Shown piece by piece: positions 3,101-47,400 of a stretch of 64,000 bases of DNA. Where the stretch lies: the NCBI GenBank assembly GCA_026874595.1, contig CM049306.1, positions 58,536,019 through 58,600,018 on the forward strand. Reading direction: 5' to 3'. The notes beneath the pieces are model-generated. The model worked only from the letters and a program-made list of their open reading frames with translations, was not told where the DNA came from and did no database searches. The DNA comes from Sipunculus nudus. Its lineage: Eukaryota > Annelida > Sipuncula > Golfingiida > Sipunculidae. Position numbers and translations under genes: made by a program. The first letter of the stretch is position 1. Every line of letters begins with the position of its first letter.

Positions 3101-6100
3101 AGTTAGCTTATCAAGCAGACCTAACTTCAGTTCTGTATTTAATTGGAATTAAAGGGAAATATGGCTGAATAAGAACTGAATTGGATTGAAAAACATTTAA
3201 TGGATTTAAAGTTTTAAGACTCAGCTGAATTGTATTGAATTGAAAAACAGATGAGATCTAAGTATTGCTGATTAGAAATTGCTTTCATTTTGCATATTAG
3301 CTTTGCAGAGTTTGGCTAAAGTCAAATATAGATTATTCTAAATGGATGTCACAAGAAGCGTGTTGAGTAGCTGATATGCTAATCACTGGTACTAAATATT
3401 GTGCATCAGTACACGGGCCAATTAGTGTCTTGTATGCAGAATTTTACAAATGTACTAACAATAAATTGAATTGGAAATTTTTTTTTAATACAGGTGCTGG
3501 CTGGAGACATAGAGGAAGCCATCTGTACTCATGCATTATATTACACAATCTGGAGACGTTTTGGGGCATTACCAGAGAGATACAACTGGCAGATGAAAGC
3601 CCCCGATGTCTTTTTTTATCCACTGAGACCAGAACTTGTGGAGTCAACATATCTTTTGTATCAGGCCACAAGAAACCCATTCTACCTCCATGTTGGAAGA
3701 GATATTCTAGAAAGCCTCAATACTCACACCAAAGTCAAGTAAGAAATATCTAAAGCCTCAACTCTCACACCAAAGTCAAGTAAGAAATATCTAAAGCCTC
3801 AATACTCACACCAAAGTCAAGTAAGAAACATCTAAAGCCTCAATACTCACACCAAAGTCAAGTAAGAAATATCTGAAGCCTCAACTCTCACACCAAAGTC
3901 AAGTAAGAAATATCTGAAGCCTCAACTCTCACACCAAAGTCAAGTAAGAATATCAAAAGCCTCATCTCCCACACCAAAGTCAAGTAAGAAATATCTAAAG
4001 CCTCAATACTCACACCAAAGTCAAGTAAGAAACATCTAAAGCCTCAATACTCACACCAAAGTCAAGTAAGAAATATCTGAAGCCTCAACTCTCACACCAA
4101 AGTCAAGTAAGAAATATCTGAAGCCTCAACTCTCACACCAAAGTCAAGTAAGAATATCAAAAGCCTCATCTCCCACACCAAAGTCTAGTAAGAAATATCT
4201 AAAGCCTCAATACTCACACCAAAGTCAAGTAAGAAACATCTTAAGCCTCAATACTCACACCAAAGTCAAGTAAGAAATATCTAAAGCCTCAACTCTCACA
4301 CCAAAGTCAAGTAAGAAATATCTAAAGCCTCAACTCTCACACCAAAGTCAAGTAAGAATATCTGAAGCCTCAACTCTCACACCAAAGTCAAGTAAGAAAT
4401 ATCTAAAGCCTCAACTCTCACACCAAAGTCAAGTAAGAAATATCTAAAGCCTCGACTCTCATATCAAAGTCAAGTTAAAATATCCAAAGCCTCAAATCTC
4501 GCACCACAGTCAAGTAAGATTATCAATAGCCTCAGCTCTCACATCAAAGTCAAGTAAGAATATCTAAAGCTTCACCTCTCACACCAAAGTCAAGTAAGAA
4601 ATATCTAAAGCCTTAACTTTCATATCAAAGTCAAGTTAGAATATCCAAAGCCTCAAATCTCCCACCACATTCAAGGAAAATTATCAATAGCCTCAGCTCT
4701 CTCACCAAAGTCAAGAAAGAATATCTAAAGCTTCAACTCTCACACCAAAGTCAAGTAAGATTATCAATAGCCTCAGCTCTCTCACCAAAGTCAAGTAAGA
4801 CTATCTAAAGTTTCAACTCTCACACAAATAAATCAAGAAAGATTATCAGTAGCCTCAGCTCTCACACCAATGTTAAGCATTCCTTTTGAATGTTGTATTT
4901 TTCAGTATAAATTTTCACAAATAATATTTACCTATTCAGGAGAATCTAAAGTTTGATAAATTGTGAAGTTATAAAGTACAGTTATTTGGTTTCATGAAGT
5001 TTCACACCAGTAATATCTGTATTCTGTTTGTTCAGCGTAACCTGATTATTGTATCTATCTTACTTTCTTGGCTAGATGTGGCTATGCAACTATACATGAT
5101 GTCACAAAGAAGGAGCAGTTAGAGGATCGCATGGAGAGCTTCTTCCTGAGTGAAACCTGCAAATATTTGTATCTTGTGAGTATATATATACACAGTAAAA
5201 ATACATTTTCATGCAGGAATTAGGCCTACTTAGTCATTAATTATTACTTGGTCATTTGACTTTGAAACTCTGAATAATTACATAATATTATTTAAACATA
5301 TTTAATGAAACTTTAATAATGCTCTGTAATATTTAATGATCCTTCAATAAACCTTATTTGTCAAGAGTGTACTTTAGTAACAAGTCTTTCATTCATCAAA
5401 TATTCGCCAGTATAAATGAGGTATGTGATAAATTCACTAACTAAATAAATAAAAGTAAAAGTAAAAAAGAAAATTCTCATTTGAATAAATTGAAAGCCTG
5501 AATTTATCCATTTTAGGTAAATTAAGTATACACAGTATATTAGTTTTACAAATTTGTTTGAATTAAACAAAAAGAGCCTCTCAGGCAAGGCCTTATTTGC
5601 TTGCTGAACAAGTTCTCATACCAAACTTAAGCCTGAATTTATCCATTTTAGGTAAATTAAGTATACACAGTATATTAATTTTACAAATTTGTTTGAATTA
5701 AACAAAAAGAGCCTCTCAGGCAAGGCCTTATTTGCTAGCTGAACAAGTGCTCATACCAAACTTAAAATTTAATTCTTTGAAACCAATAGGTACTTTTGTA
5801 ACTGTATGATCATGTAACCACTGTTGCTGAATGCCCCTGATCTTGCATATAAATTCTTTTCCTAAAAGAATGTGTTCACTGATGAAATTATTTCACTGTA
5901 TTATTATTTATAGACAACAATAGTTTATTGGCACAAAATCAACCAACAGCTGAGATGTTCTCATTGTCACAACCAGTGAGTCCAAAGATGCCCATACGGA
6001 TGTATGCATATTCATTAAGTTCAGGACATGTTAAGATTTGTATGCACTATCACTCTAACTGACACTCTGCTCATTTTTTTTCAATCCAAACTGGCCATGC

Positions 6101-17441: not shown

Positions 17442-20400
17442 TTTTTAGCGAACCTGTGAGCTAATGGGATGGTTTGGCATCGTCTGTCGTCGTCATTAAC
17501 CATACTATTTCGAAAACAACTGTTGCTAGTGTCATGAAATTTAATGCAAAAAATTAGCCATCTGAAAAACTCTACATTATTTTAGATTTTAAAGAGAAAA
17601 TGCTAAAAAACCTTTTAAAATCTTCTCCTATGAAACAGTCAAGCCAAATTGTTCAGTATTTCACAGAAATAATCTTTTATACCATCTCTCTCAAGTTTGT
17701 TCGAATGGTTCAAGTTTGGTGAATTTTGGCCGAGTTACAGGAAGTTAAACTTAGCTAACCGTCCAAAAAAAGCATACTTAAATGGCAAGCTCAAAAACGG
17801 CAGGAGCTATCTCATCAAATTTTATGCCAGTGTTGGTCACATGAGTTATATAAGAAATTCGGGTATTGGTGGCGCCACCTGCATTGACCTTTTTTTGTAT
17901 GGGGGTCATTGGTCATCTCTACATTAACCCATAATTTCTCAGGAATAGCAGGAGCTACCATCCCTAGATTTAATGCAATAATCTGTCACATATCAGCTTA
18001 TTTTTTTGCTATCTGCATTTACTTCGAATTTACTAGCTGATAAACCCGGTATACCGGGCTTTTCACCGCGGTTTGGGAGATATATTTACTGAGATATTGA
18101 AGGTTGGCTCATTTTTTATTATAAAAGTTAAAAGAAAATATAGATTTTTAGTGGGATACTCTCGGAATACAATATGTACAAATAATTTTTACTGTTATTT
18201 TGTGGCGCTGTGCTCGTAGCAAAAATCATATCCCGGTATGTTTACCTTAAAGATCTGGTCAGTGATGGTTTACATTGCGAACCGGAATGAGACGCGGAGG
18301 CATACAGTGTTTCGTTGATATTTGACTGGTTTCTATCGTTGGACGTATAAAGAATAGGTTGATGTGAGGAAAACATTAGATTAATTAAAAGTACGTTGCA
18401 AGGAAACTGTTACTGAAGAAGGAGACAGAAATATACATACATCGTAAGTAGCAGAAGCGGACCCAGCGAGACTCCATGCAGTGGGTCCGTATCCCATTTT
18501 CAGACCCCCGACACCACCCCAGCCCTGTTCCTGAATTCGGGACCTTGAATTAGGTTTTGTTATTAATCCTCCTGGGTTTCATAAAGCGAGAAACATGTGT
18601 TTTTCTCTTTTACTGACCACGCACGTGGGTCAAATCCTTATTGAAAGCAAGCGTTATTCATATTCATGAACAATAGTCCTTAGTGTTAGAAGTTAAGTGA
18701 CCACGATGTACGCAATTCGGCTGTGCTCGGTAAAAAAACGGAAAAATCACTCAAAATTATGTGTATATTAAAATTATTTATTTTCATGTCGCCTATGTCA
18801 CTGCGGGGATAATAACCTTTAAAATGATGTATGGCACAATATTATACACAACGCGGTTTTAGAGAACACCGCGAACAAACGTGAACTGAATTCCTTTTAT
18901 AAGTATTAGATAGGGAAAAAGCTGAAAAAACTTTAAAAGTCTTCTTCTTGTAAACGGTCCAGCCAAAAGGTCTTTCAGTGTGAGTAAACAGATTTACCAA
19001 CAGACCAAGATTGTGTTTGTATCTTTAAATAGGTTGAGAAACTGCCAACTGTTTCAGATTTGGCAACAGATCAAAAGTTCATTCAGTGCTGCCTGATATT
19101 GGTCAAGAGTTCAGTCAGTGCAGCCAAGCACAAGGCATGTGATCACCTCATGGGTGACATGTGAACACCTCATGGCCACCATGTAATCATCTCATGGGTG
19201 TCATGCCCCTCAGGGCTGCACGTGGACTACCAACTGTGTCAGATTATGCAACAGGTCAAGAGTTCACTCAGTGCAGCCAGGTACAGGTCGAAAGTTCACT
19301 CAGTCTAGCGAGGTGCAGGTCATGAGTTCACTTTGTGCAGTAGCCTGAGCCAGCTAGCAGATTTGTCACAGTTCACTCGGGGCAACTGCCTTTCTCACCT
19401 AAGCCTGGTCATCCCCATGCATTAGACTCAAGGTAAGTTTGATGTATTGGCCTGATATTTTGACCTGTCTATGTGTCTTTGATGGCTTCCTCGTTCACAA
19501 GACAGGTGTCGACACCTACAATGACTTTTGCACAGTGTATGTGCCTGCTTATATCTACAGAGGAATTTGATATATCAGCCTGAAATTGGGCATGCTTCGT
19601 TGTATACAAGACTTGTGGTGCCAGCTACAATCATTTTTGTGTTGTGTGCATCCATGCCAGATTTTCAGCAGTGATGTTTGTGTAATTTTTTCTTATTCAA
19701 AATGTTTAGTACTTGCATTGTTCATATACATGAGAAGTAATGGTCCAGCATTGAAGCATTATACCTGGTGTATTTACCAATGCACAGGTTATTACTAGGC
19801 ATGTAGGCCTTATTGCATGTGTATAGATCTTACATATCTTTTAATCATACACAAAATTGGTGGCGCCACCTGTCACCATTTTTGCACAGTGTCCATCTGT
19901 TCACCTGCCTTGGGATAAAAACACTCATATCTCTGCATTAGTTGAACTTATCCACCTGAGATTTTGCATGTGTATACATCCTGGACAGCTTTCTTGATTT
20001 AATGACAGGTGGCGCCACCTACGTTCAAATTTACGCTGCAGACATCCAAGCTCATATCTTAGGAACCATTTGACCGATTGGGCAAAAATTTTGCATGTTT
20101 ATAGATCTCACATAGCTCTTTATCATATGCAAAACTGGTGGCGAAATCTGCAATTATTTTTGCACAGCATCCGTTTGTGTGTCTGCAATGGGCTAAAATT
20201 ACTCATATCTCAGTAGTATTTTGACTTATCTGCCTTAAATTTTGCAATGTATATACATCTTGGATAGCTTTCTGGATTTTTTGGCAGGTGGCGCCACCTA
20301 CATTTATGTATACGCTGCAGACATTCAGGCTTATATATCAGGACTGGTTTGACATATCCCCCTGAAATTTTGCATATGTATAGATCTTACATATCTCTTA

Positions 20401-20919
20401 ATCATACACAAAATTGGTGGCGCCACCTGCCACCATTGTTGCACAGCGTCCGTCTGTTTGTCAGCCGTGGGCTAAAATCACTCATATCTCAGTAGTCGTT
20501 TGACCTATCTGCCTAAAATTTTGCATGTTTATACATCTTGGACAGCTTTCGGGATTTTGTGGTTGGTGGCGCAACCTACATACACATTTCGGCTGCAGAC
20601 ATCCAGGCTATTATGCAACACACCTCACTCTATTTCCCCTTGCCACTCAATCCATGCCTCACTTCACCTTTCCCACTCTGATTTTGGAGGATACACGTAG
20701 TCGCTTGTTTACTACCCATATTCTAGTTTTTGTGTTGTGTGCACCCATCCCAGAATTGCAGCAGTGATGTTTATTTAATTGTTTCTTGTTCTAAGTGTTT
20801 ACTACTTGCATTGTTCATATACATGTTACACATGTTCTTGAAAAGTAATGGTCCAGGATTGGAGCATTATACCTGGTGTAATCTCATTGCACAGGTTCGC
20901 ATTAGGCCTGTAGGCCTTG
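17442..20919. mobile_element. Modular TTTTTAGCGAACCTG element A (interrupted by a Helitron)
   Basis: Begins TTTTTAGCGAACCTGTGAGC at 17442 and ends CACAGGTTCGC...GGCCTTG at 20919, so CGAACCTGTG at the start is inverted at the end. It has a CGTC-rich leader ending in a TTAACC-like motif (17481-17503), then a TTTGTTCGAATGG module. A Helitron is inserted at 18033-18910. After it come a spacer with CTCATGGGTGACATG, and tandem 129/149-bp modules carrying GGTGGCGCCACC at 17868, 19859, 20008, 20287 and 20416. There is no open reading frame of transposase size. It is presumably non-autonomous. Confidence 0.65.
18033..18910 (-). mobile_element. Non-autonomous Helitron, copy 1
   Basis: Read on the minus strand it starts TCTAATACTTATAAAAGG and ends with the hairpin CCCGGTATACCGGG, then TTTATCAG and CTAG. 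It is inserted between A and T with no target duplication. These are the diagnostic Helitron ends. The host is element A: the uninterrupted copy at 26311-26320 shows the empty site as TTTTA^TAGGG. The 878-bp copy shares its ends and most of its body with the opposite copy at 37129-37933. No Rep/helicase frame is present. Confidence 0.88.
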
Positions 20920-21851: not shown

Positions 21852-24800
21852 TTTTTAGCGAACCTGTGAGCTTATGCGATGGTGTGGCGTCGTCCGTCGT
21901 CCGTCTGTCGCCCGTCGTCTGTACGTTAACCAATACTATCTTGAAAATGGCAAGAGTTAGCATAACGAAATTTTATGCAAAAAAATTAGTCATCTAAAAA
22001 ACTCTATCGGATTTTGTTTATTTTTTGGCTAACTGCATTTTCTTAGATTTTATTGGGAAACAGCTGATAAAGCTTTAAAAATCTTCTTCTCCGAAACTGT
22101 TCAGCCAAATTGTCCAATATTTCACAGAAATGATTCCTGGGACAATCTCTCTCAAGTTTGTTCGATTGGTTTAAGTTCGGTGATTTTTGGCCAAGTTACA
22201 GGAAGTTGAACTTGGTCATCTGTCCAAAAAAGCATACTAAAATTACAATCTCAAAAATTGCTGGAGCTAAAATCACCAAATTTTATGCCAATGTTGGTCA
22301 CATGAGTCATATCTGAAATTGAGGTATTGGTGGCGCCACCTGCATCGGCCTTTTTTGTACGGGGGTCATCAGTGCCCGTATCATACTGACTGCTACAAAA
22401 AACTTCTTCTCTGAACCATAAGGCCAAATTGTTTAACATCGCACAGAAATGATTCTAGGGTAGTGCTTTCTGAAGTTTGTTCAAATGGTCTAAGTTCAGT
22501 GACTTTTGGCTGAGTTATGGAAAGCTGAATTTAGTCATATGCCATAACAGCCCATTTTAGGTCAGTGGCTACAAAGATCTTCTCAAAAACAACTGGGCAA
22601 AATACTTAAATCTCATACAAAAATCATCCTTAGATGTTGATAATTCAAGTTTGTTCAAATGGTTTTGGTTCATTCATTTTTGCTGAGTTATGGGAAGGTT
22701 AACTTAGCCATTTTGCTGTATTTTCCCATATGAGTTATAAACCTGCAAAACGTTTTTAGCGAACCTGTGAGCTTATGCGATGGCGCAGCGTCGTCCGTCC
22801 ATCGTCAGCCGTCTGCCGTCCGCCGTCCAGGGTTTGCTTTCCACCGTCCATGGCTGTAAGTCAGAAACCGTTGAAGCTAGCAGCTCCAAATTACATTTAA
22901 GAATTAGTCACATGTGAAACTTGGTGCCCTGGAGCTTTTTATTGGGTATCTGCATTTATTTAGATTTTATAGAGAAAAAGCTTAAAAACCTTTAAAAATC
23001 TTCTTCTCTGAAACTGTCCAGCCAACTTGTCCAATATTTCACAGAAATGATCCCTGGAACAATCTCTCTCAAGTTTGTTCGAATGATTCCAGTTCGGAGA
23101 TTTTTTGCTGAGTTATGGGAGGTTGAACTTAGTCATCTGTCCAAAAAAGCACACTAAAATTAAAATCCCAGAAACGGCTTCAGCTATAATCACCACATTT
23201 TATACCAATGTTTGTCACATGTCATTTTTGATTTTGAGGTATTGGTGACGCCACCTACATTGATGTGTTTTTTACAAGCGAAAATGTAATTTTAAACTCT
23301 TCTTGCTTATACACTGATTTATGATGAAACTGTTAAGCTGATTGGTTTAAACTTTACAAGAATTATTCTATGGTAGGGTTCTGCCAGTTTTATAAAGATA
23401 GATTGGGTAAATACAGTTTTAAAAAAACATTGTAGCAAATTGAAAAAGGCTTTCTGTATTTGAAAACAGATCTGACAACATGCTGAGTTTCAGCATCCAA
23501 GTCAAGAGGTCACTCAGTACAAACAGGTGGGGTCCAGACATCACCATGGCAACTGACCTGGCTCAGGGGGGGGGGTGTCAAGACAATGTGTCTAGACGTC
23601 TAGACACAGCGTCTAGACGTCTAGACACAAAGTTTAGATGCAGAATTCCCAGATTATTGGAACTATATGTTTCAACTGTTTGGAAAAACTTGGTTAGCAT
23701 TTTAAGCGAATTAGGTTTATCATCAGGTCACATGTGAACTGCTGAGCCCTCATTGTTGGTTGACCTCTGACCTTTTTTTGCTGCCCAGCGTCCATTTGTG
23801 CATCCGTTTCCACACATAAACCCGTACATCTCGGGAACTGTTTGACCGATCAGGCTAAAAATTTTGCACAAATGTAGCCCTTTGATAGCTTTATAACATA
23901 CACTAAAAATGGAGGCGCCACCTGCAACCATTTTTGCACAGCGTCCATCTGTTCATCTGCCTTGGGATAATATCACTCATATCTCAGCAGTGGTTTGACT
24001 TATCCACCTGAAATTTTGCAAGTTTATACATCCCGGACAATTTTCTCGATTTTATGACAGGTGGCGCCACCCACATTCACGTTTACTCTGCAGACATCCA
24101 AGCTCATATCTCGGGAACCGTTTGACCCATTGGGCAAAAAGTTTGCATGTGTATAGATCTCACATAGCTCTTCATCATAGGCAAAACTGGTGGCGCCACC
24201 TCCAACCACTTATGCACAGCGTCCATCTGTTCATCTGCCTTAGGATAAAATCACTCATATCTCGGCAGTGGTTTGACATATCCACTTTAAATTTTGCAGG
24301 TTTATACATCCTGGACAATTTTCTCGGTTTTATGACAGGTGGCGCCACCTACATTTACGTTTACTCTTCAGACATCCAAGCTCAAACTCGGGAACCGTTT
24401 GACCGATCAAGCTAAAAATTTTGCACAAATGTAGCCCTTTGATAGCTTTATAACACACACTAAAAATGGTGGCGCAATCTGCAGCCACTTATGCACAGCG
24501 TCCATCTGTTCATCTGCCTTGGGATAAAATCACTCATATCTCAGCAGTGGTTTGACTTATCCACCTGAAATTTTGCAGGTTTATACATCCTGGACAGCTT
24601 TCTCGATTTTATGACAGGTGGCGCCACCTACATTCACGTTTACTCTGCAGACATCCAAGCTCATATCTCGGGAACTGTTTGACCGATTGGGCCAAAATTT
24701 TGCTTGTGTATAGATCTCACATAGCTCTTCATCATAAGCAAAACTGGTGGTGCCACCTGCAACCACTTATAAACACCGTCCATCCGTTCATCTGCCTTAG

Positions 24801-25226
24801 GTAAAATCACTCATATCTCAGCAGTGGTTTGACTTATCTACCTGAAATTTTGCAGGTTTATACATCCTGGACAATTTTCTCGATTTTAATGACAGGTGGC
24901 ACCACCTACATTCACGTTTATGCTGCAGACATCCATGCTAATATGCAACACACCTCACTCTATTCCCCTTGCCACTTAATCCATGCCTCACTTCACCCGT
25001 TCCACTCTGATTTCTGCGGATACACATAGTCGCTTGTCGACTACCCATATTCTAGTTTTAAAATGTCCTAGTCTGAAACTTGCAGGCCGAAATGTCCATT
25101 TTGCTGAAATCATAATGACTAAGGTAGATATGCAGGACTTAAAAGGATCAATATTAAATTTAAAAAAAAAACCTCCATTCATACTCCCAAACTTTGCACA
25201 GGTTCGCATTAGGCCTGTAGGCCTTG
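21852..25226. mobile_element. Composite modular TTTTTAGCGAACCTG element B
   Basis: There are starts at 21852 and again at 22753 (TTTTTAGCGAACCTGTGAG, followed by a CGTC-rich leader), so one copy is nested in or fused to another. It ends CACAGGTTCGC...GGCCTTG at 25226. Perfect GGTGGCGCCACC boxes lie at 22329, 24060, 24189, 24338 and 24617, with degenerate boxes at about 23245, 23911, 24467, 24747 and 24896. The spacing alternates between 129 and 149 bp, making a 279-bp dimer repeat. Confidence 0.65.
23587..23608. repeat. Perfect 22-bp palindrome
   Basis: Two 11-bp arms, TGTGTCTAGAC and its exact complement, meet without a spacer. A second, shorter copy of the core TCTAGACGTCTAGA follows at once (about 23612-23629). 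It lies inside element B. Confidence 0.95.
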
Positions 25227-25695: not shown

Positions 25696-27845
25696 TTTTT
25701 AGCGAACCTGTGAGCTAATGCGATGGTTTGGCATCGTCTGTCGTCGTTGTTAACCCATACTATTTCGAAAACAAGTGGAGCTAGTATCATGAAATTTAAT
25801 GCAAAAAATTAGCCATCTGAAAAACTCTGCATTTTCTTAGATTTTATAGAGAAAAAAGCTAAAAAAACCTTTAAAAATCTTCTCCTCTAAAACAGTCAAG
25901 CCAAATTGTTCAATATTTCACAGAAATAATCTTTTATACCATCTCTCTCAAGTTTGTTCTGATGGTTAAAGTTTGGTGAATTTTGGCCAAGTTACAGGAA
26001 GTTAAACTCAGCTAACTGACCAGAAAACTTACTAAAATGACAATCTCAGAAACGGCCAGAGCTATCATCACCAAATTTTATGCCAGTGTTGGTCACATGA
26101 GTCATATATGAAATTCAGGTATTGGTGGCGCCACCTGCAATGGCCTTTTTTTGTACGGGGGGTCATTGGTCATCTGTACATAAACCCATAATTTCTCAGG
26201 AATAGCAGGAGCTTCCATCCCTAGATTTTATGCAATAATCTGTCACATATCAAATGTTGTCGGATTTAGCTTTTCTTTTTTTTTTTTTTTGCTATCTGCA
26301 TTTACTTAGATTTTATAGGGAAAAAGCTGAAAAACGTTTAAAAGACTTATTCTTGTAAACGGTCCAGCCAAATTGTTCAATATTTTACAAAAATGATCCC
26401 AGAGGCAAGCTCTCTCAAGTTTGTTCAAATCGTTTGCATTTGATGAATTTTAGTGGTGTAACACGAGTTTGAACAGTCATTTGGCCATTTAAGCATAGAT
26501 ACATAGTAATCTCAGAAATGACAGAAGCTAGCATTACAAAGTATTGTGCAAATATTGGTCACATGACTCATATTTGAAGTTGAAGATGTTGTGGTGCCAC
26601 CTACATTGACCTGTTTTTTTATGCGCAAAAACCTCATAATTTTAGCCTCTTTCAGCTTAAAATGTTTATGATGAAACTGTCAAGTTGAATCGTTCAACTT
26701 TTCAAAATAATTATCCTAGGACATGGTTCTTTCAATCATATCAGAAAAGCTTAAGTTGGTCTTATGACCATTATTATGTCAACTTCAAACTGAGGACTGC
26801 AAAACTGTTCTTCTAGAAAATTATTGTTTCAATTATTATTGTGGCCTTTGTTCAAGTTTACTTGAATGATTTTTGGCAGAATTATTGGACCTTTAACAAT
26901 GAAAGAACTGCATCTTTTGTTATTTTAGATATTTTGATAAAAAGTTCATGAATATGTCAGCTTGAAAAAAAGCATTTTAGCCAAAGTCTTTCATTGTGTG
27001 TGAACAGATTTACCAACAGGCCAAGATTGTGTTTGTATCTTTAAATAGGTTGAGAAACTGCCAACTGTTTCAGATTTGGCAACAGATCAAGAGTTCATTC
27101 AGTGCAGCCAGATATAGGTCAAGAGTACAGTCAGTGCAGCCAAGCACAAGGCATGTGATCACCTCATGGGTGACATGTGAACACCTCATGGCCAGCATGT
27201 GATCACCTCATGGGTGTCATGCTCCTCAGGGCTGCACGTGGACTACCAACTGTGTCAGATTATGCAACAGGTCAAGAGTTCACTCAGTGCAGCCAGGTAC
27301 AGGTCAAAAGTTCACTCAGTCTAGCCAGGTGCAGGTCATGAGTTCACTTAGTGCAGTAGCCTGAGCCAGCTATCAAATTTGTCACAGTTCACTCGGGGTA
27401 ACTGCCTTTCTCACCTAAGCCTGGTCAGCCCCATGCATCAGACTTAAGGTAAGTTTGATGTATTGGCCTGATATTTTGACCTGTCTATGTGTCTTTGATG
27501 GCTTTCTCGTTCACAAGACAGGTTTCGCCACCTACAATGACTTTTGCACAGTGTATGTGCTTGCTTATTATTACAAGGAATTTGATATATAAGCCTGAAA
27601 TTAGGCATATGTATATATCTCTGATAGCTTCAGTGTATACAAGACTGGTGTTGCCAGCTACAATCATTTTTGTGTTGTGTGCATCCATGCCAGAATTTCA
27701 GCAGTGATGTTTGTGTAATTGTTTCTTATTCAAAATGTTTAGTATTTGCATTGTTCATATACATGAGAAGTAATGGTCCAGCATTGAAGCATTATACCTG
27801 GTGTATTTCCCAATGCACAGGTTCGCACTAGGCCTGTAGGCCTTG
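25696..27845. mobile_element. Modular TTTTTAGCGAACCTG element C, most compact complete copy
   Basis: A 2150-bp unit from TTTTTAGCGAACCTG (25696) to GGCCTTG (27845), with the inverted CGAACCTGTG/CACAGGTTCG ends. It has the CGTC-type leader, TTTGTTCNAATGG modules, one perfect GGTGGCGCCACC (26124) and a degenerate box (about 26590). Its interior shows the empty site of the Helitron that interrupts element A. Confidence 0.7.
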
Positions 27846-40364: not shown

Positions 40365-40499
40365 TATCTTGAGTTCCTAGAGTGTAAATCCCTTCGAAAT
40401 AATATTGTTTTACTGGAGTGCATGTGTTAACTAATTCTGATATCAATTTGGCTGTCTGAAAAAAATGGTTTCCCGATTCCGTTGTACGTATTTGGACTT
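37934..40499. other. Intergenic, downstream of the Piccolo-like gene
   Basis: AT-rich, with a long TA microsatellite at about 40311-40361. No exon or recognised element. Confidence 0.6.
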
Positions 40500-40830
40500 A
40501 CATCTTTTATCTTCAGTCAAGTTAATTCTGCTGGACCTAGTCATTCATCGTCAATCATGTCGGTTCTGTTGGACATCAAGTTCTTAATCCTCTGTCAGAC
40601 AGAAAATATAAGACATTCAGTCCTTTATCCTGGGTCAAGAAGAAGACATCAGACATTCAGTTCTTTATCCGTAATCAAGTACATAAATCAGACAAACATT
40701 TCTTTATCCTTGGTCAAGTAGATAATATAAGAGACGGTTCTTTTTCCTCGGTCAAGTAGATAACTTTGGACATTCAGTTTTGTATCTTCGGGCAAGCAGA
40801 TAACATCAGACATTCAGTTCTTTATATGTG

Positions 40831-41040
40831 GCAGAAGCAAATCCAAGGGGGGGGAGGGGGGGGGGGGGGGGTCCAGACCTCCATCCCACTTTTTCTGTCG
40901 AAGCAACTTTAAAGGGTTAAACTCTACGGCCTGGACCCTCTCCCCCCTTTCCAGACCTTGGGGCCGTTTTTTTTTTCTAGTTTTTTTATGAGTTCTCTTT
41001 GGTTGGACCCCCCTTTTCCTAAATCATGGACCCGATCCTG
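40831..41040. mobile_element. GC-rich AAGCGGATCC-family MITE, copy 1
   Basis: Starts GCAGAAGCAAATCCAAGG, ends AAATCATGGACCCGATCCTG, and carries a central TGGACCCCCCTTTTCC. It is inserted within the 40-bp array, so it is younger than the array. Confidence 0.75.
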
Positions 41041-41106
41041 CTTGGTCAAGTAGATAATATTAGATTATCTATCTTAGTCAAGCAGATAATTGTAGACACT
41101 CAGTTC

Positions 41107-41192
41107 TTTATTCCCCCGTGAAGCAGATTACATGACACGCTCAGTTCTTTATCCTCTGCCCGGTAGATCGCATAAAACCTTCAGTTTTTATT
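41107..41192 (-). terminator. Candidate poly(A) signals of the Piccolo-like gene
   Basis: The minus strand reads AATAAA at complement 41187-41192 (about 170 bases past the stop) and at 41107-41112 (about 250 past). Both lie inside the 40-bp array. Candidates only. Confidence 0.3.
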
Positions 41193-41361
41193 AATCATCT
41201 GCTAAAAAGATATTTTTAGACATCCAGTGCTTTATCCTCAGTCAAGCAGATAATAACAAACACTCAGTTCTTTAGCATCCGTCAAGTAGATTACATCAGA
41301 CACTGGGACCTGTATCCCCGGTGAAGATGATAACTTTAGATAATTAATCCTTTATCATCGC

Positions 41362-41499
41362 TCACGTTGGTTCTATGTTGTAGGACTCGATCACTTCATT
41401 GTTCAGGTAATCGTCAAACGGCACTGCATCCAAATTCACCGTTACTGTACCGACCAACTTCTTCTGGCCAAACCGTCCTTTGTCAATGCAAACAAGAAG
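41362..41499 (-). CDS. PCLO: Piccolo-like exon 9, C2B C-terminal half and stop
   Basis: The acceptor TTTTTACAG precedes 41499. Forty-five codons and TGA at 41364-41362 encode [20 protein letters not shown] and then VNLDAV, the last strands of a C2 fold. Loop 3 has a single Asp (C-I-D-K-G) where calcium-binding C2 domains have several, like the degenerate Piccolo C2B. The protein ends YNIEPT shortly after the domain. Confidence 0.9.
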   Translation of the reverse strand, partial: LLVCIDKGRFGQKKLVGTVTVNLDAVPFDDYLNNEVIESYNIEPT

Positions 41500-44400
41500 C
41501 TGTAAAAACAAGGTAGGATTAAAAGTTAGACATCAAACGTGTTACATAATATAAATGTGTCCCATATCGTTAGTTTGGCCAACCACAAATCAAAACCTAA
41601 AAGAGAAGGGAATCGTGTTGTAGGAGGTTTTGAGGATTGATCAGTAAGTAAATCCCGGCAACCTATATGAGGATTTACGAATAAGTAGATCCCGGCACCT
41701 GAGGCTATGGGTATTCACCTGTGGCTGGTTTCCAGTACCCCAAGTAATGACTATTAAACAGCTGAGGTTAAAAGCATTCTGTTATAAGAAGATCCCGGCT
41801 GTATACGAGAATTTAACTGTACTGTGAATATATCCCGGCATCTGATGTTAAAAGATTTTCCCTATATGTGGATCCCGGCACCTGAGGGTGTGAGGATTTA
41901 CCTGTAAGTAGATCCCGGCACCTGCGGCTATGAGGATTTACCTGTAAGTAAATCTGGGCACCTGAGGTTATGAGGATGTACCTGTAAATAGCTCCAGGCA
42001 CTTTAGGTTATGAGGATTTACCTGTAAGTAAATTTGGGTACCTGAAGCTATGAGGATTTACCTGTAAGTAGATCCCAGCAGCCGCAGCTATTAGGATTTA
42101 CCTGTAAGTAGATCCCGGTACCTTGGGTTATGAGGATTTACCTGTAAGTAGATCCCGGTACCTTGGGTCATGAGGACTTACCTGTAAGTAAAACTGGGCA
42201 CCTGAAGCTTTGAGGATTTACCTGTAAGTAGATCCCGGCACCTTGGGTTATGAGGATTTACTTGTAAGTTGATCCCGGCACCTCAGGCCAAGAGGAATAA
42301 CCTTTAAGTGGATCGAGGCACCTGAGGTCATGACGATTTACCTGTAAGTAGATCCCGGCAGCTGAAGCTATGAGGATCTACCTGTAAGCAGATCGCGGCA
42401 CCAGAGGTTACGAGGATTTACCTGTCAGCATTACCATTTCCCGGCACATGGGGCTATGAGGATTTACTTTTAGTAGATCATTGCACCTTTGGTTATGAGG
42501 ATATACCTGTAAGTAGATCCCGGCACAATTCCCGTTGAAGATGAAGGTCTCGTTGAAGCAAGGAGTCGTATTTGCTTGCTGCACACAGGTTTTACGTTTT
42601 TTAATTCGACTGAATTGTCGGTCTCCTCCTCGGAGTAAGCTGACCTTCACGAACCAATCTAACAAAATAGAAAAGGAAACAGTGTCTGACAGATGGAAAA
42701 TGAATGTCTCTGCTTGCTGTACATTGCCCCCCCCCCTGGTTCTTCTACTGACAATAATTTTTTGTATGGTACTTCAATGCACAAATGTCATTTTTCAGTC
42801 AAAAACTGGATATATAAAATCCGACAAAGACTCAATTCACGAGGGAACCTCTTTGATAAATCTCAGAAATTGCGTGTGGAGGACAGTGGTTTTTAAACAA
42901 GAAACCCACATTGACGTATGTCCATATACGTGGTTAATGTGCATGTACTGTCAAATACATGGCGTTTTGACAGAGAGGAACAAATACACCCCTGAATTGT
43001 GCTTGTTTTGTATATCAGCGTATATCATACATATCATACATCATGATAATTCAACTTCAGTCAACCACTCGCGTCATTCCGATGGCATTGATGTAATTGA
43101 AAGGCAAAAGGATACATCATACTACCATGTAAAGTTAGAATAAAAAAGACAACCTGCATTTCATTTTATTTTTTTTTTGGTCTTGGAATTTTGAGAAATA
43201 TATTGACACTTTGCAACTCAGTCCAAAACGCACATACGTGTTAGTAACAACCTCTCGTATAACCATGATACTGCACATTTTTCTTGTGTCCTCATGATAA
43301 CCACATTTCCCACAGATGGCAGAGTGATACAACTATGGCTGATTTAAGGGGCTCATGGGACATCCCTGTAACAAAGACAAATTTTTCAGGGGAAAATACT
43401 GGTCCGATCGGGGCCTCGAACCCATTACGGTTGCGCACAAGTCCGGCATACCAACCGCTTCGCTAGCAAAGCAAGATTCACTAGCGAGACAGTTCGGTCC
43501 GGTTTTATGTCACCCTGTAACATCCCTCAGTATCGAACTAAACGTTAAGGGAAATAAAACATATACTTAATCAAGAAAAAAACCCTGTATTTTGCGTTTC
43601 GCACCGTTTTCTTCAAAAGATTGTACCAGCAGAGTTTTAAGTTTCAATAGGTTTCCATTATGGAAGTGGATTAGTCCATTATTTCCTCGAACTTTACTCC
43701 TGGGCCCTCCCCTTCCGAGATTTTGGTATGAACTATGAATTTTTTCACATTTTGAAGGAAAATATGCAGCCCTTCAAAAATTACCGCGTTCACAAGCTAT
43801 CCTACAGACAACGACAGACGACGGCACTGAAAACAACATGTTTCCCCTGGGGGTGGGGGGGGGGTGGGGGTGGAGGAGACATAATGATTGTTACAGTATC
43901 TATATTACCTAGAAACAAAATGATCGATGATTAATGGGTGTAACATATTATGTAACAATGGCGTTATTTTTAAGGGATATTGCCAGTTAAATGAAAGCTC
44001 ATATTTTCAGCAATAAAGAGTTTACCACAATGCATTAAACTACAACATCTGAAGCCAGAAGCAATAACTCCATCCATATTTGACTTTATATCATAAAATA
44101 CACACTACCTATTTATTGACTTACAATATATATAAAATATTTAAGAATTAACAAAATAAAAATTCCTTTTATTTATGGTGTAAGTTTGCAAACACTCGTA
44201 GAAGTAGACGGAAGACACGTATATATACATTATTCGGGAAGAATACGAATACGCAGAGCTAACAGTTTGGGGTAATAGGGGGAGGGGGAACCAAAATAAA
44301 AGAGTTATAGAGGAGGGAAAGAAAACTACTGCCCAAAGACTGCTGAAGCTTAGAAAATACTAGGATGATCGAGATACAAGAGTATTAGAGTAATTAAGGA

Positions 44401-47400
44401 ACATATGTGGTCCAGTTCAGGGAGACAGGAATAAACGGGGAACAAGAGTGATGGAAGATCGAGTACAGGGTAAGGTGCTTGTGAAAGTTTATTGAATTAC
44501 AGTGTAAAGAGCCTGTGAAAGTTTGTGGAAGAACAGTGTAAGGAGCCTGTGAAAGTTTGTGGAAGTACAGGGTAAAGAGCCTGTGAAAGTTTGTTGAAAT
44601 ACAGGGTAAGGAGCTTGTGAAAGTTTGTTGAAATACAGTGTTAGAAGCCTGTGAAAGTTTGTTGAAGTACAGGGTAAGGTGCCTGTGAAAGTTTGTTGAA
44701 ATACAGTGTAAGGAGCCTGTTAATGTTTGTTGAAATACAGTGTAAGGAGCCTGTGAACGTTTGTGGAAGTACAGGGTAAGAAGCCTGTGAAAGTTTGTGG
44801 AAGTACAGTGTAAGAAGCCTGTGAAAGTTTGTTGAAATACAGTGTAAGGAGCCTGTGAAAGTTTGTTAAGTACAGTGTAAAGAGCCTGTGAAAGTTTGTT
44901 GAAATACAGGGTAAGGAGCCTGTGAAAGTTTGTTGAAGTACAGGGTAAGGTGCTTGTGAAAGTTTGTTGAAATACAATGTAAGGAGCCTGTGAAAGTTTG
45001 GTGAAATACAGTGTAAGGAGCCTGCGAAAGTTTGTTGAAATACAGTGTAAGGAGCCTGTGAAAGTTTGTGGAAGTACAGGGTATGGTGCTTGTGAAAGTT
45101 TGTGGAAGTACAGGGTAAGGTGTCTGTGAAATTTTGTTGAAGTACAGTGTAAGGAGCCTGTGAAAGATTGTGGAAGTACAGGGGAAAAAGGATGGTTGAG
45201 ATACATGAGTAGCAGGAGGGAGAAGAAACATGTGCCGATGATATTCTGTGTTCAGAAAATCAGACAACATCGAGGTGCCATTTAAGCCAGAGGAGACAAC
45301 GTACCGAGCAATCTGTCGTGAACGTTTTGTTCCTTCATTTTACAATTCATTACAGATATGACGAGGGAGTTGGCCTCAGAGTTACGCTGGATCCCCAACA
45401 TTAGGCTGCCTGCAGAGCGGGGTTTCACATCTAGACAACGAAGCATGCACGTGATCTGTATGTATTGTAACATTTGTGACTTGATAATACTCAACAACAT
45501 ACCGTTCTAAGAAAAGATACTGGATATTCAGAGGAAAAAAAAACTTCATTGTTCTGGCATTAACAGCTAACAGATTATAATAAACCTTCACTTTTAAAAT
45601 ATTGGTTTAATCTGCGCAATAGTCAGTATGTTGAGTCTAAATTTTTGTGGTACACGTATTAAAGTCTGCATGTCAGTCATTCTCTTAGTTTACTGTAGTT
45701 TGTTGTATAGGTAAGGAGCCAACTGTTGGATCCCATCTAATTTTATCATTCATCGACAAAATAAATTAAACCTAAAAAAATTCAGTATAATACCACAATT
45801 TACCATATATTTTCTCAGTCTAAAAGGTAGCGAATAAAGCATAAATTGGGCGGGTTTTCCTCGCAGTTAATTTCGGATTGGGGTATACCGTGACAGTAAT
45901 ATATGAAATATTTATTTTCACATTGGGATTATGTCACAATGTATTTACTTTTGTAATCTAATAAAGGTAACATGGTTAAAAAACACGCGCATAATGTACA
46001 TTGGTGTATCCAGTTTAAATGTAAATTAATATTTCAATTGAATGTTTGAGCCATAATTTATGTTACCTGTGTCCCTCTTGACCTTTCGGGTGAGACCTAC
46101 GTTGAGTGTTTGACCGGGCCCCAGGGTCGGGTTGACGTCAGACCGGGACATGATATCTTTGTGAATGGCTGATATTTTCGTGCTTGTGTAGTCGACTCGT
46201 CTCCTGCCACAGCTACTGAAACCAGTGCTTCCACTGAATGACTTTTCCAGATAACGGCACGATCTATTTCTTATAATATAGAGCCATCATTCCATGGAGT
46301 TGAACCAATTAGACCATGGGGTTTTATATTCACCGATAACTATATTAGATCAATCAGGTACTTCTAAGTCTCCTAATTTAGAATTTTGAAAAAAGAAATG
46401 AACCGGTTTAAAAAAAATCAAAGCATGTGAGACAAAGAACGAGAATAAATTTTAATATCTAATTCAGTTTTATATTATTTAATAATTGTAATTATACGGA
46501 CAGACAGTGAAAGTATGATTAAGACCGGTTGTACCAGTTAGGCATTATAATCGCCCAAGCCCTCTGTGTCTGTGGCATGATTGTTTCATGTTTCAGCGGT
46601 TGAAACATCGCAATACAGTGAAAACAGGCATTTACTGCAGGAAATTAAACCGGATTATGTCTCAATTTTTATTATATTTCCCCGAATCGAATTTTGAAGA
46701 AGATGTGTGGCTCGCCACCCGAAAGAGCGCAGGCCTTAATTCCCTCACTTGCAAGTTCCAAGGTCAATTTCTAAAGGCTGGTGACATCCGGATACTTTTT
46801 AATGAATGACGGCCGCAACGATTGCTAATGACAAGGCAACCCAGAAAATAAAAATAGCGGATAGAGATACTGTTCTATGAACAGAGGATTACAACTGACT
46901 GCCAAAAATTATATCCAAAATGATATCCTTAATGCATTTATTATACTCATAGTATACATAAACGTAGGCATGAGGTTGAAAAAATAAATTATCAAAATAA
47001 TAATATCACTGACACAAAATACATGTATTTGCATGCATGATCAAAAATTCAAATAAAGTGTTACAACTTTAAAATGCTACAATTTAAAAAGTTAAATATA
47101 AGTTGTTATGGGGGGTTTAATATGCTGACCTTATACCGGTGCTTCCGTCACTGTCTGAGGACTGACCGCTGAAACTTTGGGACGGTGACATCAAATCGGA
47201 GCGATGACAATGTTCAGCTGAAAAAGAGATAAAGAAGACAAGTGTGTAATATTTATTCATACAAATAATCCAGTTACTGAACATCTAAGGATTACGTATC
47301 CAGCATCTCTCAGGGGCCGGATCCAGGATTTAGGAAGAGGGGACAGGGGTCCAACCCAGGAGGACAAATGGCCAAGCCAAAAAAAATAGTCACAAAGTCC

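Follow-up and report, generated by a model that had tools for sequence, protein, structure and literature searches.

Copies of an exon end and its 5′ splice site form a minisatellite in a synaptotagmin-like gene of Sipunculus nudus and recur at other donors

Introduction

In one gene of the sipunculid worm Sipunculus nudus, an intron consists largely of tandem units that carry the end of the preceding exon together with its 5′ splice site (donor). From what did this array arise, and how could a gene tolerate a series of donor copies directly behind its true donor? We analyzed these questions in a stretch of 64,000 nt (assembly GCA_026874595.1, contig CM049306.1, positions 58,536,019 to 58,600,018 of the forward strand; hereafter the window) and in the whole assembly (1.43 Gb in 153 contigs, ~17 of them large). 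The coordinates of the main features are collected in Table 1.

Table 1. Features of the two exon-end arrays and of their host genes, in window coordinates
Feature	Position	Strand	Remarks
Exon 8 of the predicted synaptotagmin-like C2 gene	42507..42658	-	Reading frame WFVKV...NCAGIYLQ; TTAG acceptor before 42658
3′-terminal 20 nt of exon 8, which supply the exon half of the repeat unit	42507-42526	-
True 5′ splice site region (predicted), intron start GTATAT	42498..42506	-	Frame into exon 9 unbroken; 8.0 bits
Intron 8	41500-42506	-	1007 nt; acceptor TTTTTACAG|CTTCTT
Exon 9, ending NIEPT and then an in-frame TGA	41365..41499	-	Matched at 96% when the genome was searched with the protein
40-bp array of exon-end and donor copies	41642..42506	-	16 well-kept units at 42506-41862, the rest degraded
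EDEM-like (glycosyl hydrolase 47) exon, the last 28 nt of which seed an array	3495..3738	+	Pfam GH47, 1.7e-33
41-bp array of 28 units, each with 28 nt of exon end and 13 nt of intron start	3739..4876	+	Next exon from 5076

Results

The host gene and the border between exons 8 and 9

The protein predicted from the joined exons 8 and 9 matched the Pfam C2 domain (2.2e-10), and its best matches among solved structures were Syt7 (6.6e-12), Syt1 (2.9e-9), RIM1 (0.0012) and Piccolo (0.051). The original prediction had called the gene Piccolo-like. This name was not upheld, given the distance of the Piccolo match from those of Syt7 and Syt1, and the host gene is, as judged from its sequence, synaptotagmin-like.

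Continuity of the predicted protein showed that the true border would lie at the 5′-most of the repeated copies. When the genome was searched with the joined protein, eight matches were obtained besides the gene itself, all with weak E-values (4.2e-4 to 0.93). All eight spanned the exon 8/9 junction as a single match, with stops present in two of them; six were within two residues of the query in length, while the match on contig C3 was 7 residues longer and one of those on C6 was 6 shorter. An intron at the position of intron 8 is not seen in these distant relatives. As the junction was crossed by every match and the length was kept in six, the comparison argues that the exon end would be the original and the array its copy.

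The units of intron 8 copy the end of exon 8

TRF reported a repeat of period 40 with 17.2 copies at 41832-42526, and wraparound alignment resolved the 16 well-kept units followed by ~6 degraded ones, down to ~41642. We observed that the array starts precisely where exon 8 gives way to intron 8 and spans ~865 nt of the intron. Each unit reads GTAAATCCTCATAGCCTCAGGTGCCGGGATCTACTTACAG, in which the first half corresponds to the intron start (~20 nt) and the second half to the last 20 nt of exon 8. On the minus strand there are exactly three occurrences of these 20 nt, GTGCCGGGATCTACTTACAG: one closes the exon (42507-42526) and two lie in the intron, at 42222-42241 and 41902-41921. All 16 well-kept units begin with GT, and AG|GT was counted by eye at 13 of the 16 unit borders.

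The best intron matches to the exon end scored 20, 20, 19, 19, 19, 18, 18 and 18 of 20, whereas other 20-mers of exon 8, sampled every 8 nt, reached at most 14 of 20 in intron 8, and the exon end reached at most 15 of 20 in 500 mononucleotide shuffles of the intron. Similarity at the level of chance, which had been set beforehand as the refuting outcome, was therefore not what we found. The prediction that the 40-bp units contain the last 20 bases of exon 8 plus a donor, in an array seeded by the splice donor, agrees with their register and with the full identity of two units. The array also fills nearly all of the intron as had been claimed, and it is indeed one of two in the window, the other being located at the EDEM-like exon described below.

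Two neighbouring repeats were considered as donor arrays and rejected. A second, more degraded 40-bp array on the minus strand (40481-41365) starts in register within 1 nt of the coding end of exon 9, and 28 of its first 40 nt agree with the consensus. Because the frame stops there at a TGA, this array is probably not intron but 3′ UTR or downstream DNA, and the donor candidate, AACGTGAGC, scored 3.0 bits, below all 60 donors sampled in the genome. In the case of the 34-bp array at 44462-45181, exon 7 ends ~120 nt before it, and that exon end, on inspection by eye, is absent from the unit.

An array of the same build at an EDEM-like exon

The exon on the other strand matched alpha-mannosidase (3.6e-29) and EDEM1 (2.1e-28), and its protein runs without a gap from 3495-3738 into the exon at 5076. 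Five of the copies in its array are identical to the true border over the 28 exon nt plus GTAAGAA, and 21 of the 23 decoy donors above 2 bits share the 9-mer of the true donor. As those five decoys are identical to the true site in the donor and in the near exon context, they differ from it only by position. GT is kept in 25 of the 28 units, which read AA|GT.

This array (3711-4877) also has a higher-order period of ~204 bp, equal to five units, which suggests a recent block duplication or exchange.

Arrays at other donors, and the question of chance siting

We surveyed 60 donors (40 kinase and 20 myosin exon ends) and 40 acceptors. The exons were hand-picked from lists of 138 kinase and 75 myosin matches and were mostly short, internal and free of stops; the positions were called by eye, with those of L035, L048, L085 and L124 being uncertain. 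An array was counted at a period of at least 20 and at least 2.3 copies, cut-offs that were fixed after the data were seen.

An array or duplication was present at the site in 3 of the 60 donors (L034, L029 and L098). The kinase exon L034 has a straddling 65-bp array that reaches the end of the region, and the myosin exon L098 has a straddling two-copy duplication (17/18 nt). Two more straddling arrays were observed at incidental second kinase exons within the fetched regions: one of 49 bp and 2.4 copies at GTPEYLAPE| (L061), and one of 32 bp, cut by the region end, at MIVHRDIK| (L066). In addition, at L018 an array (3579-4135) lies across the donor of an aldo-keto reductase exon, and the protein is continuous at this donor (DLYQ|IHFWDD). 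Copies that straddle a donor thus occur, besides exon 8, at the EDEM-like exon, the aldo-keto reductase exon, three kinase exons and one myosin exon, the last with two copies. The reasoning given above for exon 8, that the exon end would be the original, applies to the EDEM-like and aldo-keto reductase exons as well, whose proteins are likewise continuous across the first donor.

The array at L029 (1-741) hugs its donor without including it: it is a uniform 40-bp array (15 copies, 96% matches) that begins after the first 8 nt of the kinase intron. A further array, at L022 (2881-4912; 53 bp, 38 copies), carries CAG|GTATAC in its unit on the minus strand; it was set aside as a donor array, no exon being established at its edge.

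On the acceptor side, TRF detected no array at the site in any of the 40 regions; repeats below the cut-offs were present at L080 (120 bp, 2.0 copies) and L113 (28 bp, 2.1 copies). By local alignment, a two-copy repeat ends at the L088 acceptor, with 16 of 18 nt alike and on the intron side only, and scores of at least 24 were reached at 4 of 60 donors (L034, L098, L062, L096) as against 2 of 40 acceptors (L088, L073). By the cut-offs, arrays were present in 8 of the 60 donor-side regions and in none of the 40 acceptor-side regions (p = 0.02); for boundary-linked arrays the counts were 4 of 60 and 0 of 40 (p = 0.15). With this last comparison and the repeat at L088, the evidence for an asymmetry between donors and acceptors is weak.

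It could be argued that minisatellites arise anywhere, that some of them overlap exon ends, and that donors are not favoured. Several counts agree with such chance siting. Contig C1 was sampled in 20 pieces of 10 kb at even spacing (200 kb in all); this DNA held five arrays with a period of 18-150 and 5 or more copies, of which only one was shown to sit on a donor. Only 2 of 49 consensus units, from this sample and from the window, which was itself selected for its arrays, contain a donor with a score above that of 95% of random stretches. Genome-wide, three AGGTAAGT in tandem were counted 723 times and the reversed motif 589 times; this control is dominated by a few long arrays, with all 100 of its listed rows falling at three places, and the motif count therefore neither proves nor excludes an enrichment at donors. 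Among the pre-chosen exons alone, 2 of 6 array edges fall at a donor (p = 0.09). Against chance siting, once the incidental second exons are included, four of the eight arrays in the donor survey start no more than 30 nt from a donor (p = 0.003, with post hoc cut-offs), and we consider it unlikely that donors are hit by accident only. An estimate of 4 of 11 array edges at donors was set aside, as it had counted the 40481-41365 array and the non-random window.

Decoy donors outscore the true donor and mostly break the frame

With a matrix built from the 60 sampled donors, the true donor of exon 8, CAG|GTATAT, stands at the 38th percentile of these donors with its 8.0 bits. The common decoy, CAG|GTAAAT, scored 9.8 bits and one decoy, CAG|GTAAGT, 13.3 bits. 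The score listing has 12 of the 45 GT sites of 41600-42506 at or above the true site, which is itself included by rounding, hence 11 other sites outscore it. The decoys had been described as nearer to the consensus than the real donor, and the scores support this; better-looking decoys do exist, although their number is 11 and not ~20 as proposed. With many decoys stronger than the true site, choice of the first donor needs a positional rule.

The frame of exon 9 is lost from 14 of the 15 decoys tested and kept by one (42468, +39 nt), in keeping with the expectation that their use would usually break the end of the C2 domain. At the EDEM-like exon, none of the 22 decoys tested keeps the frame of the next exon. 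Decoy use is harmful by this frame arithmetic, and reliable choice of the first donor is therefore to be expected.

Are the decoys themselves useful? The repeated sites might bind U1, aid a mediocre true donor or block early polyadenylation, and be kept by selection. Such a functional array would fit the GT kept in nearly all units of both arrays, and also the middling to low rank of some true donors: besides the 38th percentile of the synaptotagmin-like gene, those of EDEM, the aldo-keto reductase and L034 stand at the 23rd, 15th and 28th. However, the true donors of L061, L066 and L098 are strong (78th, 70th and 88th percentile), and the distal units of intron 8 have decayed. Moreover, the donor columns are conserved no better than the rest of the unit, with rank 13 of 40 circular shifts in intron 8 and rank 18 of 41 in EDEM. 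For this reason the column conservation of these two arrays gives no sign of selection on the decoys, either for or against, and a functional role of the array appears improbable to us.

Removal of the array in steps, in which each AG|GT unit acts as an acceptor and then as a donor and the exon end is restored each time, would be favoured by the AG|GT unit borders and by the human UBC arrays in which such units are described as used both ways (PMC10809524), but we give it little credence: the EDEM units, with AA|GT, cannot work as dual-specific sites, no clear pyrimidine tract precedes the AG of the units, and intron 8 has its acceptor outside the array and a length that is no multiple of 40.

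Other repeats and exons

One pair of short tandem repeats, of 22 bp and then 32 bp, is present at two places in the window, 19136-19340 and 27152-27356, which lie 8016 bp apart and look like two copies of one dispersed element. The arrays at 19813-20609 and 23828-24944, with periods of 279 and 278 bp, have a partly common consensus (GGTGGCGCCACCTGC) and may belong to one satellite family. Outside the window, four successive myosin-head matches in one gene (C2:44848559-44852248) overlap almost completely on the profile (~109-153) and are candidate mutually exclusive exons.

Discussion

The above results indicate that the locus is an exon–intron boundary minisatellite of a kind already known. 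In amphioxus, the 'mirages' are minisatellite-like tandem copies across exon–intron borders in Adh3, the globins BflGb6 and BflGb9, troponin C and PGBD5, and splicing there is reported as undisturbed (PMC3087553, PMC3902484). The likeness is close: tandem copies span the border, many of them carry AG/GT signals, and several genes of one genome are concerned. Each unit of intron 8 spans the border in register, with 20 nt of exon and ~20 nt of intron, and the signals are those counted above (GT in every well-kept unit, AG|GT at most borders). What distinguishes the present case from the mirages so described is the ~20 short units at one donor. In the genes sampled here the straddling copies lie at donors, whereas acceptor-side copies are described for BflGb6, which speaks against a donor-only rule.

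In UBC, tandem units bearing AG|GT also offer many potential splice sites; the units there are coding and the intron length is a whole number of units, whereas the array described here is intronic and does not include the acceptor (PMC10809524). Intron 8 does not have the features of an AGGT tandem-duplication or dual-specific intron: exon 9 starts with CTTCTT, the intron with GTATAT, its length is 1007 nt, and its acceptor is not in the array. A donor-site minisatellite is also known from a human interferon-induced gene. There, as here, a minisatellite offers multiple splice donor sites. We take the human gene to be IFI6 (6-16), whose repeat unit reportedly measures 12 bp and resembles the donor consensus, and where splicing reportedly uses more than one of the donors; the unit of intron 8, in contrast, has 40 bp and includes 20 exon nt. 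In the titles and abstract openings of the open-access literature, we found no whole-genome account of donor-anchored arrays.

We conclude that the exon-end array is probably a near-neutral by-product of tandem duplication, a minisatellite of the mirage type that is tolerated through use of the first donor. A tandem duplication with one end 20 nt upstream of the exon 8 border and the other ~20 nt downstream of it would have copied the exon end together with its 5′ splice site; slippage or unequal exchange would then have grown the array to ~20 units. Slippage driven by hairpins was rejected, as DNA folds of six units were no stabler than those of shuffles (z −0.78 to 1.11). With the 5′-most donor in use, every later copy would be intron and the coding exon would stay untouched, and the array would therefore be near-neutral and free to grow. 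A duplication across an acceptor should do more harm, since the spliceosome would use whichever copy is closest to the branch point. An upstream acceptor copy would thus be selected more frequently, with loss of the frame, and arrays are therefore expected to be rarer at acceptors. The build of the units, the direction of copying, the recurrence at other donors and the frame effects of the decoys follow from the sequence comparisons, whereas we infer the use of the first donor, the near neutrality and the difference between donors and acceptors from these considerations.

A wider proposition, which we hold tentatively and regard as possible rather than probable, is that 5′ splice sites are birthplaces of minisatellites throughout this genome, that tandem donors are tolerated because the first one wins while tandem acceptors are not, and that private decoy arrays accumulate at exon ends. 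Choice among equivalent 5′ splice sites has mostly been studied with engineered duplications, whereas here serial copies occur naturally in real genes, and some decoys, as in EDEM, match the true border at every one of 35 nt. If donors are indeed such birthplaces, the genome would be a natural experiment on donor choice by position only among identical sites. If the survey rate of 3 in 60 is typical, thousands of introns would carry an array or duplication at the donor, and in such a genome gene finders would meet many high-scoring false donors during annotation. If the bias towards donors is real, it would tie the rules of splicing to the places where minisatellites grow and to models of intron gain.
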